From NCBI GenBank assembly GCA_020056225.1, contig JAGVIE010000012.1, forward strand, positions 1 to 64,000: a DNA stretch of 64,000 nucleotides. The letters run 5' to 3'. Below, piece by piece: positions 9,093 through 55,530 of this stretch. The translations under genes and the position numbers were made by a program. The notes beneath the pieces are model-generated. The model did no database searches and was not told the origin of the DNA. It worked only from the letters and a program-made list of their open reading frames with translations. The number at the start of each line of letters is the position of its first letter. Positions within the stretch are counted from its first letter, which is position 1. This DNA is from Bacteroidota bacterium. GTDB lineage: Bacteria > Bacteroidota > Ignavibacteria > UBA10030 > SZUA-254.

Positions 9093-9176
9093 GAATCTCA
9101 CCATCTCCTCGGCACATTCTTTACTGTGCGAACAGTATCACGGGCAATCAACAATTCTTCGTTTGTCGGGATTACG
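9093..9176. repeat. Direct repeat of the ackA 3' end, left copy
   Basis: 84 bp match 17765-17848 in the same orientation without gaps and with two differences. Both differences are synonymous when read as acetate kinase on the minus strand. Outside these 84 bp the flanks do not match. The two copies bracket the kinase/regulator/surface-protein block. The rest of 9068-9350 holds no gene I can support; it ends in the A/T-rich leader of the kinase gene, with a TTGACA at 9243-9248 but no convincing -10 box at 17 bp. Confidence 0.9.
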
Positions 9177-12421: not shown

Positions 12422-12485
12422 GAACTCATCCCCCATTTCCCCCTTCTCTTTGGAAAGAGAAGGGGGATTCAAGGGAGTTGAGTTC
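12422..12485. repeat. Nested palindromic repeat between kinase and regulator genes
   Basis: A 12-bp perfect stem (CCCCCTTCTCTT at 12439-12450, AAGAGAAGGGGG at 12455-12466) with a 4-base loop lies inside an outer 7-bp inverted repeat (GAACTCA 12422-12428, TGAGTTC 12479-12485). Its minus strand reads CCCC..hairpin..GGGG-AAATGGGGGATGAG, the same layout as the palindromes around the DUF559 gene at 51894-52504. There is no T-run after the stem, so it looks more like a repeat-family member than a simple terminator. It occupies the kinase-regulator gap (12330-12552). Confidence 0.7.
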
Positions 12486-17670: not shown

Positions 17671-17769
17671 GTGAGTGGACTTGTCCGTCAGCTTTATGGC
17701 GGAACTCACTCCCAACGGGAAATGATGTACAAAATCATAAATCCCCAATCCAAAATCCGCAATCGAATC
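17671..17769. repeat. Hairpin repeat and AAATCC-type repeat beside the ackA 3' end
   Basis: GTGAGT (17671-17676) pairs with ACTCAC (17704-17709) around a core CAGCTTTATGGC that recurs in the palindrome array at 51919-51931. Next, 17731-17769 is a run of AAATCC-like units ending exactly where the ackA direct repeat begins (17765). Similar AAATCC-type units occur on the opposite strand at 55440-55480. No gene is present in 17483-17769. Confidence 0.55.
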
Positions 17770-17848
17770 TCACCATCTTCTCGGCACATTCTTTACTGTG
17801 CGAACAGTATCGCGGGCAATCAACAATTCTTCGTTTGTCGGGATTACG
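17765..17848. repeat. Direct repeat of the ackA 3' end, right copy
   Basis: This is the 3' end of the intact acetate kinase gene plus five bases beyond its stop. It matches 9093-9176 with two silent differences, and homology stops abruptly at both edges. It marks the right border of the 8.6-kb block 9177-17764. Confidence 0.9.
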
Positions 17849-50308: not shown

Positions 50309-51439
50309 ATGAGAAATCCTTTTCTTAAGTCATCTTGGTTTTTTGTTGCTGTATTTACAATCGCTATCTCTCTCTTCTTATCTGCATGCTCGACTGAGAA
50401 GACGGATGTTGCAAATATGGGAACACCAACACAAGCACCAACCTTCGCAAAATTAAGTGCGAGCGATCCTGAAGTTCAGGCTGTCATGGAAGTGCAGAAC
50501 AAACACACTGCAAAACTTATGGCAGATAAGAATGTTGTCGGTACGGCAACTGGTTTAACTGCCGACGGCAAAATAGCAGTCCTGGTTTTCCTGGAAAAAG
50601 GTGATGCAACTCCTAAAGGAGTAAAAGCTATATCATCCATTCCAGCCGATCTCGATGGTGTGCCGGTTGTTGTAGAAGTAACAGGCGCGTTTAAAGCAAT
50701 GAAGACTACGGCTGTAAGTCATAAGGCAAAGCAGACTCCCCCGATTCAACTTGGAACATCGGGCGGATGGCGTTATGATTTGGCGAACGGATATTGCTGC
50801 GGTGGTACGCTCGGATCTTTGATTCAAAAAGGCGGCACGCAGTACGTTCTCAGTAACTACCACGTTCTGTGGGGCGATATAGTTGCAGGCGGTAACAGCA
50901 GAGTAGCAACAGCCGGTGATCCCGTTATTCAACCGGGCTTAATCGATGTAGGATGTAATGCCGCGAACGCACAGAATGTTGCAAATCTTTCCGGTGCCGG
51001 TAGTTTACCGAGCGCCAATGTCGATGCAGGTTATGCACAGGTTATTTCAGGCATGGTTCGCACCGATGGCGCTATTCTTGAAGTTGGAACGATCTCCGCA
51101 ACAACAGTAGCCGCATACGTTGGTCAGCCGGTGAAGAAGAGCGGACGAACAAGCGGTTTAACCCGCACCACAGTTTCCGGGCTTAATGGGACAGTCAGCA
51201 TTCAGTATGAAACTGAATGTGCCGGTACTGCTGCCTTCGTAAAAACATTTACAGGCCAGGTTATTTTGAAGGGCGGCAAGTTCATCCAATCCGGTGACTC
51301 CGGTTCGTTGATGGTTGAAGATATTACGACGAATCCTCACGCAGTAGGTTTGTGTTTTGCAGGAAGCGCAACCAATGGAATCGCGAACCCGATCAATGCA
51401 GTATTAAGCTGGGCTGGCGCGACCATGGTAGGTCAATAG
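50309..51439 (+). CDS. Lipoprotein trypsin-fold serine protease with N-terminal prodomain
   Basis: 376 residues. A lipoprotein signal ends in LFLSAC (Cys27). An N-terminal alpha/beta domain (about 45-145; KNVVGTATGLTADGKIAVLV, ADLDGVPVVVEVTGAFKAMK) is followed by a chymotrypsin-fold domain with His185 (LSNYHVLWG), Asp239 (ANVDAGYAQ) and Ser331 (QSGDSGSLM), a complete triad. It resembles Nal1-like peptidases. The N-domain recurs alone in the next gene and as a remnant at 52524. Promoter, strong ribosome-binding site and terminator make it a self-contained unit. Lipidated, so membrane-attached and facing the periplasm or the outside. Confidence 0.85.
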   Translation: MRNPFLKSSWFFVAVFTIAISLFLSACSTEKTDVANMGTPTQAPTFAKLSASDPEVQAVMEVQNKHTAKLMADKNVVGTATGLTADGKIAVLVFLEKGDATPKGVKAISSIPADLDGVPVVVEVTGAFKAMKTTAVSHKAKQTPPIQLGTSGGWRYDLANGYCCGGTLGSLIQKGGTQYVLSNYHVLWGDIVAGGNSRVATAGDPVIQPGLIDVGCNAANAQNVANLSGAGSLPSANVDAGYAQVISGMVRTDGAILEVGTISATTVAAYVGQPVKKSGRTSGLTRTTVSGLNGTVSIQYETECAGTAAFVKTFTGQVILKGGKFIQSGDSGSLMVEDITTNPHAVGLCFAGSATNGIANPINAVLSWAGATMVGQ

Positions 51440-51478
51440 CCTAAGCAAACATCAATTATCGGGAGTGATTGAAGAGAT

Positions 51479-51520
51479 AAGCGCCCCTTTCAGAGGAAAA
51501 AATGAAACGGGCGCTTTTTT
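51479..51520 (+). terminator. Terminator of the serine-protease gene
   Basis: AAGCGCCCCTTTCA (51479-51492) pairs with TGAAACGGGCGCTT (51503-51516) with one mismatch, followed by TTTT. Confidence 0.9.
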
Positions 51521-51546
51521 ATTTGTGTTGAAAGACGAGGTGACTA

Positions 51547-51870
51547 TTGAAATATTTTTTTACGATAGTATTATGTTTGTCTCTCGGGTTATTGATTTTA
51601 AGATGCAGCTCCGGTGAAAGGCACAATGGTGAAGGTAAGACGACAATGAAAGTCCGCGATATAAATGCAGTTAAAGACGACCACACTAATGAATTGATGT
51701 CGATCCATGGCGTTGTTGGCGTATACATTGGTGCCTATGATGACGGCACGAAGTGTATAGGTGTAATGGTTGATACGCTGACACCTGAGATAGAAAAGAA
51801 AATTCCCAAAACGCTTGAGGGACATCCCGTGAGAGTTGAAGAGACGGGAGTGATAAAGCCGATGAAGTAA
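51547..51870 (+). CDS. Stand-alone protease N-domain lipoprotein
   Basis: 107 residues starting at TTG 51547, with GAGG upstream. A hydrophobic signal (MKYFFTIVLCLSLGLLILRC) ends in Cys20, though Arg at the -1 position is unusual for a lipobox. The rest (about 40-107; HTNELMSIHGVVGVYIGAYD, LEGHPVRVEETGVIKPMK) is homologous to residues about 55-135 of the serine protease upstream, without a protease domain. It may be a free inhibitor or chaperone of the protease, like a detached propeptide; that is inference. Confidence 0.75.
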   Translation: MKYFFTIVLCLSLGLLILRCSSGERHNGEGKTTMKVRDINAVKDDHTNELMSIHGVVGVYIGAYDDGTKCIGVMVDTLTPEIEKKIPKTLEGHPVRVEETGVIKPMK

Positions 51871-51893
51871 TTTATAACGAAGGCGGGAAACGT

Positions 51894-51982
51894 AAAGTCC
51901 CCTCTTGAGACTTGGTCGCCAGCTTTATGGCAAAGTGGATTTTCCGCTGTAGGCGGATGCGCCTCTGGCGCAAGGGGTGTGT
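51894..51982. repeat. Palindromic repeat array upstream of the DUF559 gene (copy A)
   Basis: It begins AAAGTCCCCTCTTGAGA and ends AAGGGGTGTGT, the same ends as the compact palindrome at 52470-52504. About 60 bp are inserted between, holding three further hairpins: GCCA/TGGC around AGCTTTA (51918-51931), TCCGC/GCGGA (51943-51956) and TGCGCC/GGCGCA (51958-51972). The first shares CAGCTTTATGGC with 17671-17709. It is a composite of nested palindromes. Confidence 0.7.
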
Positions 51983-52003
51983 CTTCAATAACACGATTAT
52001 TAA

Positions 52004-52411
52004 ATGAAACGGAAAATAATTCCATACGATCACAACTTGAAACAACTTGCACGTAATCTACGCAACAACAGTACACTCGCTGAAGTGTTGCTATGGCGGG
52101 AATTGAAAGGCAAACAAATTCGCGGATATGATTTTCACCGCCAGAAACCTATTGATAAATTTATTGTTGATTTCTATTGCTGCGATCTTTCGTTGGCAAT
52201 CGAAATAGATGGTGTAAGTCATGATGAAAAAATTGTACAGGATGAGAACCGGCAGCAAAAGTTAGAATCTCTTGGCGTGAGATTTTTGCGATTTACAGAT
52301 AGAGAAGTAAAAACAAATTTACAAGGTGTAGTTATGTCAATTGAAGATTGGATTGATGCTCATGTACCCACCCCTAACCCCTCCAAGGAGGGGATTAAAA
52401 GTCGAAAATAA
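52004..52411 (+). CDS. DUF559 nuclease-like protein (PD-(D/E)XK fold)
   Basis: 135 residues. KQLARNLRNNSTLAEVLLWR, FHRQKPIDKFIVDFYC, LAIEIDGVSHDEK and LGVRFLRFTDREVKTNL are DUF559, related to Vsr-type PD-(D/E)XK endonucleases: Asp in IVDFYC, the E-x-D of AIEIDG and His/Arg further on. Its biological role is not established. The last 14 residues (PTPNPSKEGIKSRK) are encoded by a palindromic repeat (copy C), and another palindrome array lies just upstream in opposite orientation. It interrupts a cluster of protease-domain paralogues, so it was probably inserted there. Confidence 0.88.
   Translation: MKRKIIPYDHNLKQLARNLRNNSTLAEVLLWRELKGKQIRGYDFHRQKPIDKFIVDFYCCDLSLAIEIDGVSHDEKIVQDENRQQKLESLGVRFLRFTDREVKTNLQGVVMSIEDWIDAHVPTPNPSKEGIKSRK
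52367..52403. repeat. Palindromic repeat inside the DUF559 3' coding end (copy C)
   Basis: CCCACCCCTAA is followed by the hairpin CCCCTCC-AA-GGAGGGG (52378-52393) and ATTAAAAGTC. Read on the minus strand it has the same plan as copies A and B (GACTTT..CCCCTCC..GGAGGGG..TTAGGGGTGGG). Copies A and C therefore flank the gene as inverted repeats, with their GGGGTG ends towards the gene. Confidence 0.8.
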
Positions 52412-52421
52412 AAAGTCCCAT

Positions 52422-52450
52422 CTCGATACTTGTTCTGAGCGAAGTTCGAG
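52422..52450. repeat. Short imperfect hairpin repeat
   Basis: CTCGATACTT (52422-52431) pairs imperfectly with AAGTTCGAG (52442-52450) around GTTCTGAGCG, between palindrome copies C and B. Confidence 0.55.
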
Positions 52451-52469
52451 GAGAGGATCAAGAGAATTG

Positions 52470-52504
52470 AAAGTCCCCTCTTGAGAGGGGATTTAGGGGT
52501 GTGT
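52470..52504. repeat. Compact palindromic repeat (copy B)
   Basis: AAAGTCCCCTCTTGAGAGGGG followed by ATTTAGGGGTGTG. The stem CCCCTCT/AGAGGGG has a two-base loop. It lies 59 bp after the DUF559 stop and has the same orientation as copy A. Confidence 0.8.
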
Positions 52505-52523
52505 TGATGAAGAAGCATTTGCA

Positions 52524-52589
52524 ATGAAACGACTGAATAGATACCCCGTGAGAGTTGAAGAAACGGGAGTGATAAAACCAATGAAATGA
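52524..52589 (+). pseudogene. Orphan tail of a protease-N-domain paralogue
   Basis: The last 15 codons including the stop (PVRVEETGVIKPMK) match the 3' end of the gene at 51547. Over 45 bases there are five differences and all are silent, including TAA/TGA. Only 21 codons can be read from the ATG at 52524. The body of the gene is gone, replaced by the DUF559/palindrome material. Silent-only change shows the copy was under selection as a real gene before it was truncated. Confidence 0.8.
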
Positions 52590-52671
52590 GATATGACGGT
52601 AACGGTAAAGAAAAAAACTCTGTATATGTTTTACAACAGTAGTTATGTGCAATAACTATGAATGAATAGCC

Positions 52672-54111
52672 ATGCAAGAAAACTCATCTAGGGATCAAAA
52701 AACAAAGAGTGACATTCTAGAAGCTGATTCCGCATATCGACCTATTGCTTCATTCAGTTCATGGAGTCAATTGAATCTTGATTTAGTGAGATGGGAAAGA
52801 TATGCAACGCTGATCGAACAGCGTAAGAATGTCAACAAAAGAACTCTCAATCGGGCAAGGGATATTGTCAAACGAGTCGCAGCTATTGAGACTGGGGCAA
52901 TTGAAGGATTGTACCAAGTTGATCGTGGATTCACCTTCACAGTTGCAACTGAGGCTGCAATGTGGCAAGCTGCTGTTCAAGCAAAAGGCACAACAGCAAC
53001 ATCTTTAATCGAATCTCAGTTGTACGCTTATGATTTCGTTTTGGATTTCGCCACACAGAATGTTCCGATAGTTGAGGCTTGGATTCGTCAATTACATCAA
53101 GAGATCTGCCGTGGACAGAATGAATACATCGTGCATACTGCCGTCGGCACACAGAATCACAAACTACCTTTGGGTGAGTATAAGCATCACCCCAATCATG
53201 TCCGGACTCCAGATGGTAACGTACACTCATACGCCCCAGTTGAAATGACCCCCGGTGAGATGGGAAGGTTTTGTGAAGAGTTGCACTCGATACTCTTTAC
53301 CTCAGCCCATCCGATTCTCCAAGCAGGGTATTCTCATTACTGCCTGACGGCCATTCATCCCTTCGCTGACGGAAATGGAAGAGTTGCAAGAGCATTAGCC
53401 TCAGTTTTTACATATCGCTCTCAATCGGTTCCCTTGCTTATACTTGCAGAGCATAGGAAGGAATACTTTGAAGCACTCTCAAAGGCTGATCAAGGTGATT
53501 ATCAATCATTCGTCGATTTTGTTCGGGAACGAATTCTGAATGCAATGCAACTCGTTGATGAAAGTTTGCGAGCAGCGAAAGCTCCCTCAATGACGGATTC
53601 TTTGGCAACCCTCAGGAAACTTTATGTAACAAAGGGTGGTTACACCCATGCGGAAGTAGACAGGGCTGCAAACATATTACTAGGTCTCCTACATGAAGAA
53701 TTCGGGCGCTTAAGTCAAGAGTATAATGTGCCTAACCAATTTCAAATCTCGGTCGGCAATGCACACAACACAGGCAATCAAACGTTTAATGATTCTTATC
53801 GGTTCCCGCTGTCTGGTGTGCCTACACAATTTACTGTGACTTTTCTTGCTGATCAGCCTGCGCAAGCACGCATCGACTATTCACTATTTCTCCAAGTCCC
53901 GATTGATTGCGGAGTACACGATGATATCATTTATTATAATCCTCAAACATCAGAAATTTTTGGGGTGAGATTAAATGAACTTCTACCGGCACCAACTCCA
54001 TCTACGAGAATGAGGATCAAGATGTGGGTCGAAAGTATTGTGGGTGAAGCGGTGGCGAGACTTGCTAAGTTAGCTGAAGAAGAATTGAAGAGGCGGGGTT
54101 ATCGGAAATAG
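52672..54111 (+). CDS. Fic domain protein, class II with N-terminal inhibitory motif
   Basis: 479 residues. The Fic core HPFADGNGRVARAL starts at His229 and has every catalytic residue for AMP transfer. The N-terminal inhibitory motif [S/T]xxxE[G/N] is present as TGAIEG (74-79), so it can self-inhibit, typical of class II Fic enzymes without a separate antitoxin. The C-terminal 180 residues (about 300-479) are an extra region I do not recognise. It should AMPylate a protein target; the target is unknown. It lies in the accessory stretch next to the DUF559 element and has no partner gene. Confidence 0.9.
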   Translation: MQENSSRDQKTKSDILEADSAYRPIASFSSWSQLNLDLVRWERYATLIEQRKNVNKRTLNRARDIVKRVAAIETGAIEGLYQVDRGFTFTVATEAAMWQAAVQAKGTTATSLIESQLYAYDFVLDFATQNVPIVEAWIRQLHQEICRGQNEYIVHTAVGTQNHKLPLGEYKHHPNHVRTPDGNVHSYAPVEMTPGEMGRFCEELHSILFTSAHPILQAGYSHYCLTAIHPFADGNGRVARALASVFTYRSQSVPLLILAEHRKEYFEALSKADQGDYQSFVDFVRERILNAMQLVDESLRAAKAPSMTDSLATLRKLYVTKGGYTHAEVDRAANILLGLLHEEFGRLSQEYNVPNQFQISVGNAHNTGNQTFNDSYRFPLSGVPTQFTVTFLADQPAQARIDYSLFLQVPIDCGVHDDIIYYNPQTSEIFGVRLNELLPAPTPSTRMRIKMWVESIVGEAVARLAKLAEEELKRRGYRK

Positions 54112-55117: not shown

Positions 55118-55530
55118 TGAGATAATAGCTGATGTTACGCACGGTCATGATTCATTGCGAAAAATCCTAAGCACGAATACCTGCCTGCCGGGGGCTGTCT
55201 AATAAGTCCGAGAGAGTGTCACATTGAGCTTGTCGAAATGTGAAATTGAGCGGCATTGAGCCTTCGACAAGCTCAGGCAGACAGTAATTGATTCTTTTTA
55301 GACAGCCCCTTTGGCAGACGGGTCAAAATACTAAACAAATCTATAATACGAATTCTCAAAATTCTGGAAATCGGTTCTTTTATAACAGTTTTAGATTTTT
55401 GGAAATTCGAATTTGTCCCGCTTTTCGGGATGGCGCCAAAGGCGCTCATTTAGGATTTCGGATTTAGAGCTTCGAATTTTTACCCCTGAATATTACTTTT
55501 TGTAACATGAATTAATAATACTGCTCATTA
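55118..55530. repeat. 413-bp gene-free gap with a nested palindromic element
   Basis: No gene. The outer arms GGGGCTGTCTAA (55191-55202) and TTAGACAGCCCC (55298-55309) are perfect 12-bp inverted repeats. Inside, TGAGCTTGTCGAA (55225-55237) pairs with TTCGACAAGCTCA (55263-55275), and CACATT/AATGTG forms a smaller stem. Short CTGCC/GGCAG repeats lie outside the arms. Further right are hairpins TCCCG/CGGGA and GCGCC/GGCGC (about 55415-55450), then AAATCC-type units on the minus strand. It looks like a small non-coding repeat element and debris. Confidence 0.7.

Follow-up and report, generated by a model that had tools for sequence, protein, structure and literature searches.

A DUF559 gene enclosed by palindromic repeats

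The window (the whole stretch of 64,000 nucleotides that was analyzed) carries a small DUF559 nuclease gene enclosed by palindromic repeats (Table 1). The whole mobile unit occupies positions 51894-52504 on the forward strand and reads A-> DUF559 gene <-C ->B; the minimal unit is A-gene-C (51894-52402), and homologous DUF559 units span ~0.45-0.6 kb. A sequence-only reading of this DNA had claimed a DUF559-type gene among palindromes, a copy A with its GGGGTG end pointing to the gene, an inverted copy C followed by copy B, and a distant relative at 12422. All of these features were located, the distant relative as a repeat of a different type.

Table 1. Features of the DUF559 unit and related repeats in the window.
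Feature	Position	Strand	Details
DUF559 (PF04480) EDxHD/Vsr-type nuclease gene	52004-52411	+	135 aa; Pfam PF04480 E=1.1e-30
Copy A, triplex repeat whose loops are enlarged, directed at the gene	51894-51982	+	From alignment to homologous unit
Copy C, inward triplex repeat across the gene's 3' codons	52366-52402	-	CCCCTCC-tt-GGAGGGG-tta-GGGGTGG
Copy B, outward triplex repeat	52470-52504	+	AAAGTCCCCTCTTGAGAGGGGATTTAGGGGTGTGT
Left copy of flanking duplication, 3' end of upstream gene	51821-51890	+	Family D8; ORF 51547-51870
Right copy of duplicated gene 3' end, past the unit	52540-52609	+	79% identical to 51821-51890
Solitary triplex repeat of another type	12425-12482		CCCCTTCTC..GAGAAGGGG..GGGGATGAG

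Intact copies of the repeat consist of a pyrimidine arm (Y), a purine arm (R) and then a third purine stretch (R') that mirrors R; since R' mirrors R after the stem, the repeats are potential intrastrand-triplex motifs (Y-R-R'). The sequence-only reading had noticed neither this third stretch nor the flanking duplication of a gene 3' end. Copies C and B fit the Y-loop-R-loop-R' triplex pattern with 0 mismatches, copy B having the architecture TCCCCTCT-tg-AGAGGGGA-ttt-AGGGGTGT. Copy A is degenerate: its Y arm lies at 51899-51905 and its R' (AGGGGTGT) at ~51973-51980, with GGGGTG facing the gene, and compared to the homologous unit of genome G583 its loops are ~54-58 nt larger and its R arm is mutated. 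The same enlarged-loop form is present at locus L010 (2096-2175). The solitary repeat at the other end of Table 1 is triplex-capable on either strand, and its type flanks DUF559 in G124 (L096), another genome of the class. The stem pattern has 6 matches in the window vs. 0.27 expected from shuffles.

Directly 3' of the unit is a gene for a Fic-domain protein (52672-54111) similar to ‘mobile mystery protein B’. An imperfect 47-nt inverted repeat with GGGGCTGTC ends and 25 nt between its arms (55191-55309) is possibly a separate MITE-like element, and two 84-nt direct repeats, 98% identical, lie 8.7 kb apart (9093-9176 and 17765-17848).

The DUF559 protein

By profile and fold, the window protein belongs to the DUF559 / EDxHD-Vsr nuclease family, and a DUF559 gene had already been assigned to the EDxHD homing endonuclease family (PMC9403480). 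Its AlphaFold2 model (pLDDT 83.7) matches NGO0050 (3hrl, TM 0.89) and the catalytic domain of the homing endonuclease I-Bth0305I (3r3p, TM 0.80), with a weaker match to Vsr (1cw0, 1vsr); sequence profiles likewise recovered 3hrl (E=7e-36) and 3r3p (E=1.6e-6). Across 31 diverse sequences, E27, D56, E67, H73 and R83 are invariant and D80 is nearly so. Besides PF04480, the profile search of the window protein gave only a weak match to REase_MTES_1575.

Triplex character of the repeats

BoxC/PIT repeats, known from E. coli since the 1990s, were shown to form triplexes and were reportedly also treated by Hoyne in 2000. BoxC, PIT and TM are names for GC-rich intrastrand-triplex repeats, for which Holder 2015 (PMC4666352) reports no cognate protein, mobility or function and whose instability it attributes to the triplex itself. 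Judged by their architecture, the window repeats belong to this BoxC/PIT/TM class, their sequence type differing from TM_ECO. The third stretch co-varies with the hairpin arm (a match of ≥87% in 62% of own-locus vs. 20% of cross-locus pairings), and R' fits better as a mirror than as a direct repeat in 159 cases and worse in 39 (p = 2e-18).

Association of DUF559 genes with triplex repeats

Of 60 solitary DUF559 genes in the window's own phylum, 45 have a triplex motif no more than 300 nt away, and motif density is 1.87 per ~1-kb gene-centered region vs. 0.044 per kb in the outer parts of the same loci (42x). With YcjD, the DUF559 protein of E. coli, alone as the query, we recovered relatives from Enterobacteriaceae, Alphaproteobacteria, Xanthomonads, Gastranaerophilales, Marinimicrobia, Taylorbacteria and others; 66 of these 72 solitary genes from several phyla have a motif at the same distance, at densities of 2.24 per ~1-kb gene-centered region vs. 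0.012 per kb farther out (190x). Loci that were negative by the strict finder nonetheless have palindromes on both sides, with longer loops.

The repeat arms are C-rich, and G/C-rich low complexity combined with a loose motif definition might be thought to create a spurious association. We consider this scarcely credible: 132 DUF559 regions contain 267 triplex motifs, whereas first-order Markov shuffling predicts 0.6, more distant parts of these loci are 42-190x poorer, and reversed-pattern controls gave 0. Shuffles, distance controls and reversed-pattern controls thus rule out a chance or low-complexity origin. The association alone fits both a nuclease that mobilizes the repeat and a gene that rides in a repeat moved otherwise.

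Repeat type and gene type

PF04480 is matched five times in the window's own genome (G000, 3.5 Mb), and each of the four matches examined has its own repeats (as sampled by genome searches). One of them, L009 (contig C34), has the repeat type of the window, and its protein is 87-89% identical to the window copy. The repeat at L007 is TTTTCCCCT-cgagg-AGGGGAAAA-tac-AAAAGGGGT, while that at L006, CCCTCTCCC-gcgtgc-GGGAGAGGG-attata-GGGTGAGGG, is of the E. coli BoxC type. In the single genome G078, two genes at 89% identity have one common repeat type, and two others (35-45% identical to these) have another.

Across 49 own-phylum loci, protein identity is correlated with repeat-arm similarity (Mantel rho 0.16, p = 0.001; different-genome pairs only, rho 0.15, p = 0.001), a correlation that is weak and driven by protein pairs of >60% identity, for which arm similarity is 0.83 vs. 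0.67 at 30-40%. The sequence-only reading had proposed to test whether repeat sequence follows the type of DUF559 gene; the Mantel result agrees with this, as do the DUF559 genes of another type among genomes around Enterobacter, which lack BoxC and have other repeats. A pattern for one non-BoxC repeat type, resting on 2 repeats in one genome and too narrow for G430's own repeats, had matches in a single genome (G473) among 246 genomes around Enterobacter, which indicates only that G473's repeat type is absent elsewhere in that sample.

Repeat number and gene presence

The 246 genomes of this sample belong to the family of G300, which holds the Enterobacter hormaechei locus L117, and the repeat was counted by the TM_ECO pattern. 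At least 4 BoxC copies are present in 25/29 genomes with DUF559 (median 33, max 197) vs. 8/217 without it (median 0; Fisher p = 2.6e-23, a test that overstates the number of independent events because the sampled genomes are related). When only genomes of ≥3.5 Mb are considered, the numbers are 25/28 vs. 8/122 (p = 1.9e-18). The reversed TM_ECO pattern has 0 matches in all 246 genomes. The sequence-only reading had asked whether palindrome number follows the presence of the gene, and it does so here and, by medians, in E. coli (see below).

G543, which departs furthest from this pattern with 71 repeats and no gene, retains a 40-residue ycjD remnant (90% identity), and a ycjD remnant is also kept in G346, another gene-less exception. 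Repeats without a DUF559 gene also occur in G323 (21) and G539 (24). The 4 genomes with DUF559 and no BoxC all have lower-scoring DUF559 genes with different adjoining repeats (L187-L190). Nor does the correlation hold strictly within the family to which the window belongs, where G256 and G577 have 2-3 copies (G256, 2) and no DUF559.

ycjD and BoxC in E. coli

The gene ycjD is present in 3366/5426 E. coli genomes. In K-12, TMECO no. 9 (Holder 2015; 1351204-1351239) lies 168 bp from ycjD (1351407-1351760), the 3' end of which overlaps a degenerate inward type-B copy. In most sampled enterobacteria an inward type B lies on the ycjD stop codon and an outward type A comes next, an arrangement equal to the gene <-C ->B layout of the window. 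A combined ycjD+BoxC query matched a median of 21 places in 37 ycjD+ genomes vs. 6.5 in 22 ycjD- genomes (p = 8e-9), a comparison confounded by phylogroup; O157:H7 has ~15 matching places without ycjD. DUF559 (YcjD) is very likely the partner that BoxC repeats, so far orphans, have lacked in E. coli and many other bacteria. A search of open-access literature found no paper linking DUF559/YcjD to BoxC or triplex repeats.

In the fabI-sapF interval (L011 vs. L103), ycjD and BoxC are found where other E. coli hold eefRABCD, and the ycjD-less E. coli that were examined have eefRABCD at the ycjD site. Acquisition of the unit therefore goes together with the loss of an efflux operon of 7.5 kb. The replacement of eefRABCD by ycjD has been noted, with no mention of the repeats (PMC12817139).

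Moved units, in-frame insertions and empty sites

The units of the window, L009 and G583 (contig C181, another genus) align from first to last repeat, while their flanks are unrelated. Solitary copies and gene-less C+B pairs occur in G256, G576 and G577. Beyond the unit, both the window and L009 have a diverged duplicate of the upstream gene's 3' end (at L009 the gene is serS and the duplicate lies at ~1373-1430). This duplicate could record one-sided repair, or a replacement 3' end imported with the unit. Directly repeated flanks are found at 34/136 DUF559 loci vs. 5/439 control positions (p = 3e-18), and no target-site duplication was found at the DUF559 units.

Long DUF559 ORFs are in-frame repeat-gene-repeat insertions in PriA, IleS, IspE, LeuS, MetH, HsdR, HsdM and DNA methylases; their reading as ‘fused helicases’ is ruled out by in-frame insertions with repeats on both sides. 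No Hint/intein domain was detected in 10 proteins with an in-frame insertion (E≤1e-5), which argues against an intein in these. A group I intron was also rejected, as no Rfam family scored above the gathering threshold in window positions 51400-53000 and the insertions stay open reading frames. A DNA methylase gene at L013 (G106) contains several pairs of triplex repeats in frame, with the translation PSPHPSPSGRGG..LPAGEGGRRPGEG, and just one of the pairs carries DUF559; gene-less repeats thus insert in frame too, as Rickettsia palindromic elements (RPEs) do.

These insertions bear on the idea that DUF559 is a Vsr-like repair or defense nuclease that keeps instability in check by acting on DNA in triplex or hairpin form, with the adjoining repeats being regulatory. 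The Vsr-like fold and a weak PADLOC match to a type II methyl-directed REase (E=6e-5) fit such a role. It would leave unexplained the in-frame insertions in housekeeping genes, the transposition of the unit, its patchy presence and the C-terminal codons made of repeat, and we regard it as very improbable.

Empty sites, for which the sequence-only reading had suggested looking in close relatives, were found at two places. In G583 the upstream gene of the window locus is present without the unit. Within the genus of G053, the LeuS insert is also present in G551 (89% identical) and missing from G562 (88%), G558 and others; the filled gene of G053 and the empty gene of G562 differ by 471 bp (157 codons). 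No repeat is present at the LeuS empty sites of these congeners, which argues that repeats arrive with the gene.

The latter result counts against a view in which triplex repeats are moved or amplified by another enzyme or by replication/repair instability, DUF559 being a hitchhiking homing gene that favors repeats. Attribution of instability to the triplex itself (Holder 2015, PMC4666352), the existence of EDxHD homing endonucleases and the genomes that have repeats and no gene are all compatible with hitchhiking, but DUF559 types differ in repeat type and nearly all gene-less genomes lack the repeat, and we think hitchhiking unlikely.

The polymorphic LeuS site is compatible with free-standing homing, in which DUF559 would cut insert-less leuS, ileS and priA and the palindromes would merely insulate it (as terminators or linkers). 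The same region has been struck in LeuS of two genera and in PriA of three genomes, and the fold matches I-Bth0305I. That homing of this plain kind accounts for the units seems doubtful, however: many are intergenic at unrelated sites, there are up to 197 solitary repeats in one-gene genomes, and the repeats are translated through in frame within host proteins, where they therefore have no terminator role.

A probable mobile DUF559 element with triplex-palindrome ends

The unit and its gene-repeat association, type specificity, copy number, in-frame insertion and empty sites, as read from the genomes compared, are best explained by a widespread mobile family made up of a DUF559 gene and cognate triplex palindromes, in which the nuclease would cut the repeat and repair would copy the unit; we give this reading a probability of roughly 0.8. 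Many repeat types besides TM_ECO are shown to fall under the same gene-repeat scheme, and repeats that lack the gene, single or paired (BoxC/PIT in E. coli), would represent its non-autonomous form.

For the operation of this family we infer repeat recognition, cutting, repair-based copying and action in trans. The DUF559 nuclease would recognize its own palindrome, either as a hairpin/triplex when single-stranded or bound as a duplex, and would cut there or right alongside. The break would then be repaired in a homing-like way, at times ectopically or from one side, which would place a copy of the unit, or of a repeat pair without the gene, at another site; one-sided homologous repair would leave the diverged 3' end of the upstream gene past the unit. 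The nuclease may also act in trans on gene-less copies. A single-strand transposase-like route is possible and less likely, given the absence of HUH and DDE chemistry.

On balance, we favor the broader proposal that DUF559/YcjD nucleases mobilize a separate class of bacterial elements with triplex-palindrome ends, recognizing the triplex or hairpin in its folded state, spreading themselves and thousands of gene-less BoxC-type repeats and inserting unspliced and in frame into essential enzymes. No described class is known to join such ends to a DUF559-type nuclease; were the movement of the element plain homing, it would be better placed among free-standing homing endonucleases. BoxC/PIT repeats gain a candidate enzyme in ycjD, which adjoins one such repeat in K-12, and the question of BoxC becomes testable as a result. 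The proposal also points to a function for a DUF that is very common and would explain genome instability and the patchy abundance of triplex repeats. A unit bearing a nuclease is revealed in frame within aminoacyl-tRNA synthetases, PriA and MetH.

Comparison with known systems

RAYT (TnpA-REP) is a Y1 HUH enzyme of the IS200/IS605 superfamily (cf., in part, PMC6006769). REP/RAYT systems resemble the DUF559 unit in having a small nuclease gene between inverted copies of its own palindrome family, and solitary and paired copies genome-wide whose number follows the gene. They differ in the nuclease, Y1 HUH vs. the EDxHD/Vsr-type metal nuclease fold of DUF559, and in that DUF559 repeats are Y-R-R' triplex motifs and DUF559 units enter essential genes in frame. 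No Y1 HUH transposase was found in the window unit, in either the profile search or the Vsr-like fold. The proposal of a RAYT/REP-like mobile unit therefore holds for the way of working and fails for membership, as the nuclease superfamily differs; by analogy, the DUF559 element would join the RAYT/REP way of working to homing and would use a nuclease of different descent.

YcjD-type units have exactly TM_ECO as their repeats, and the inverted type A + type B pairs of BoxC/PIT/TM_ECO equal the gene-less form of the unit; the difference is that BoxC/PIT/TM_ECO were described without a cognate protein or mobile element, whereas DUF559 units have the gene attached. I-Bth0305I (PDB 3r3p) has the fold, part of the active-site pattern and the character of a mobile endonuclease gene in common with DUF559, but it is intron-tied and has extra DNA-binding regions, while DUF559 units encode a ~130-aa single-domain protein and have palindromic ends, a repeat family and no intron or intein. 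RPEs are also palindromic, lie in frame in housekeeping protein genes and stay unspliced; at ~150 bp, with just a short conserved peptide ORF (PMC10969869), they have no nuclease gene, unlike the DUF559 unit, which bears one.
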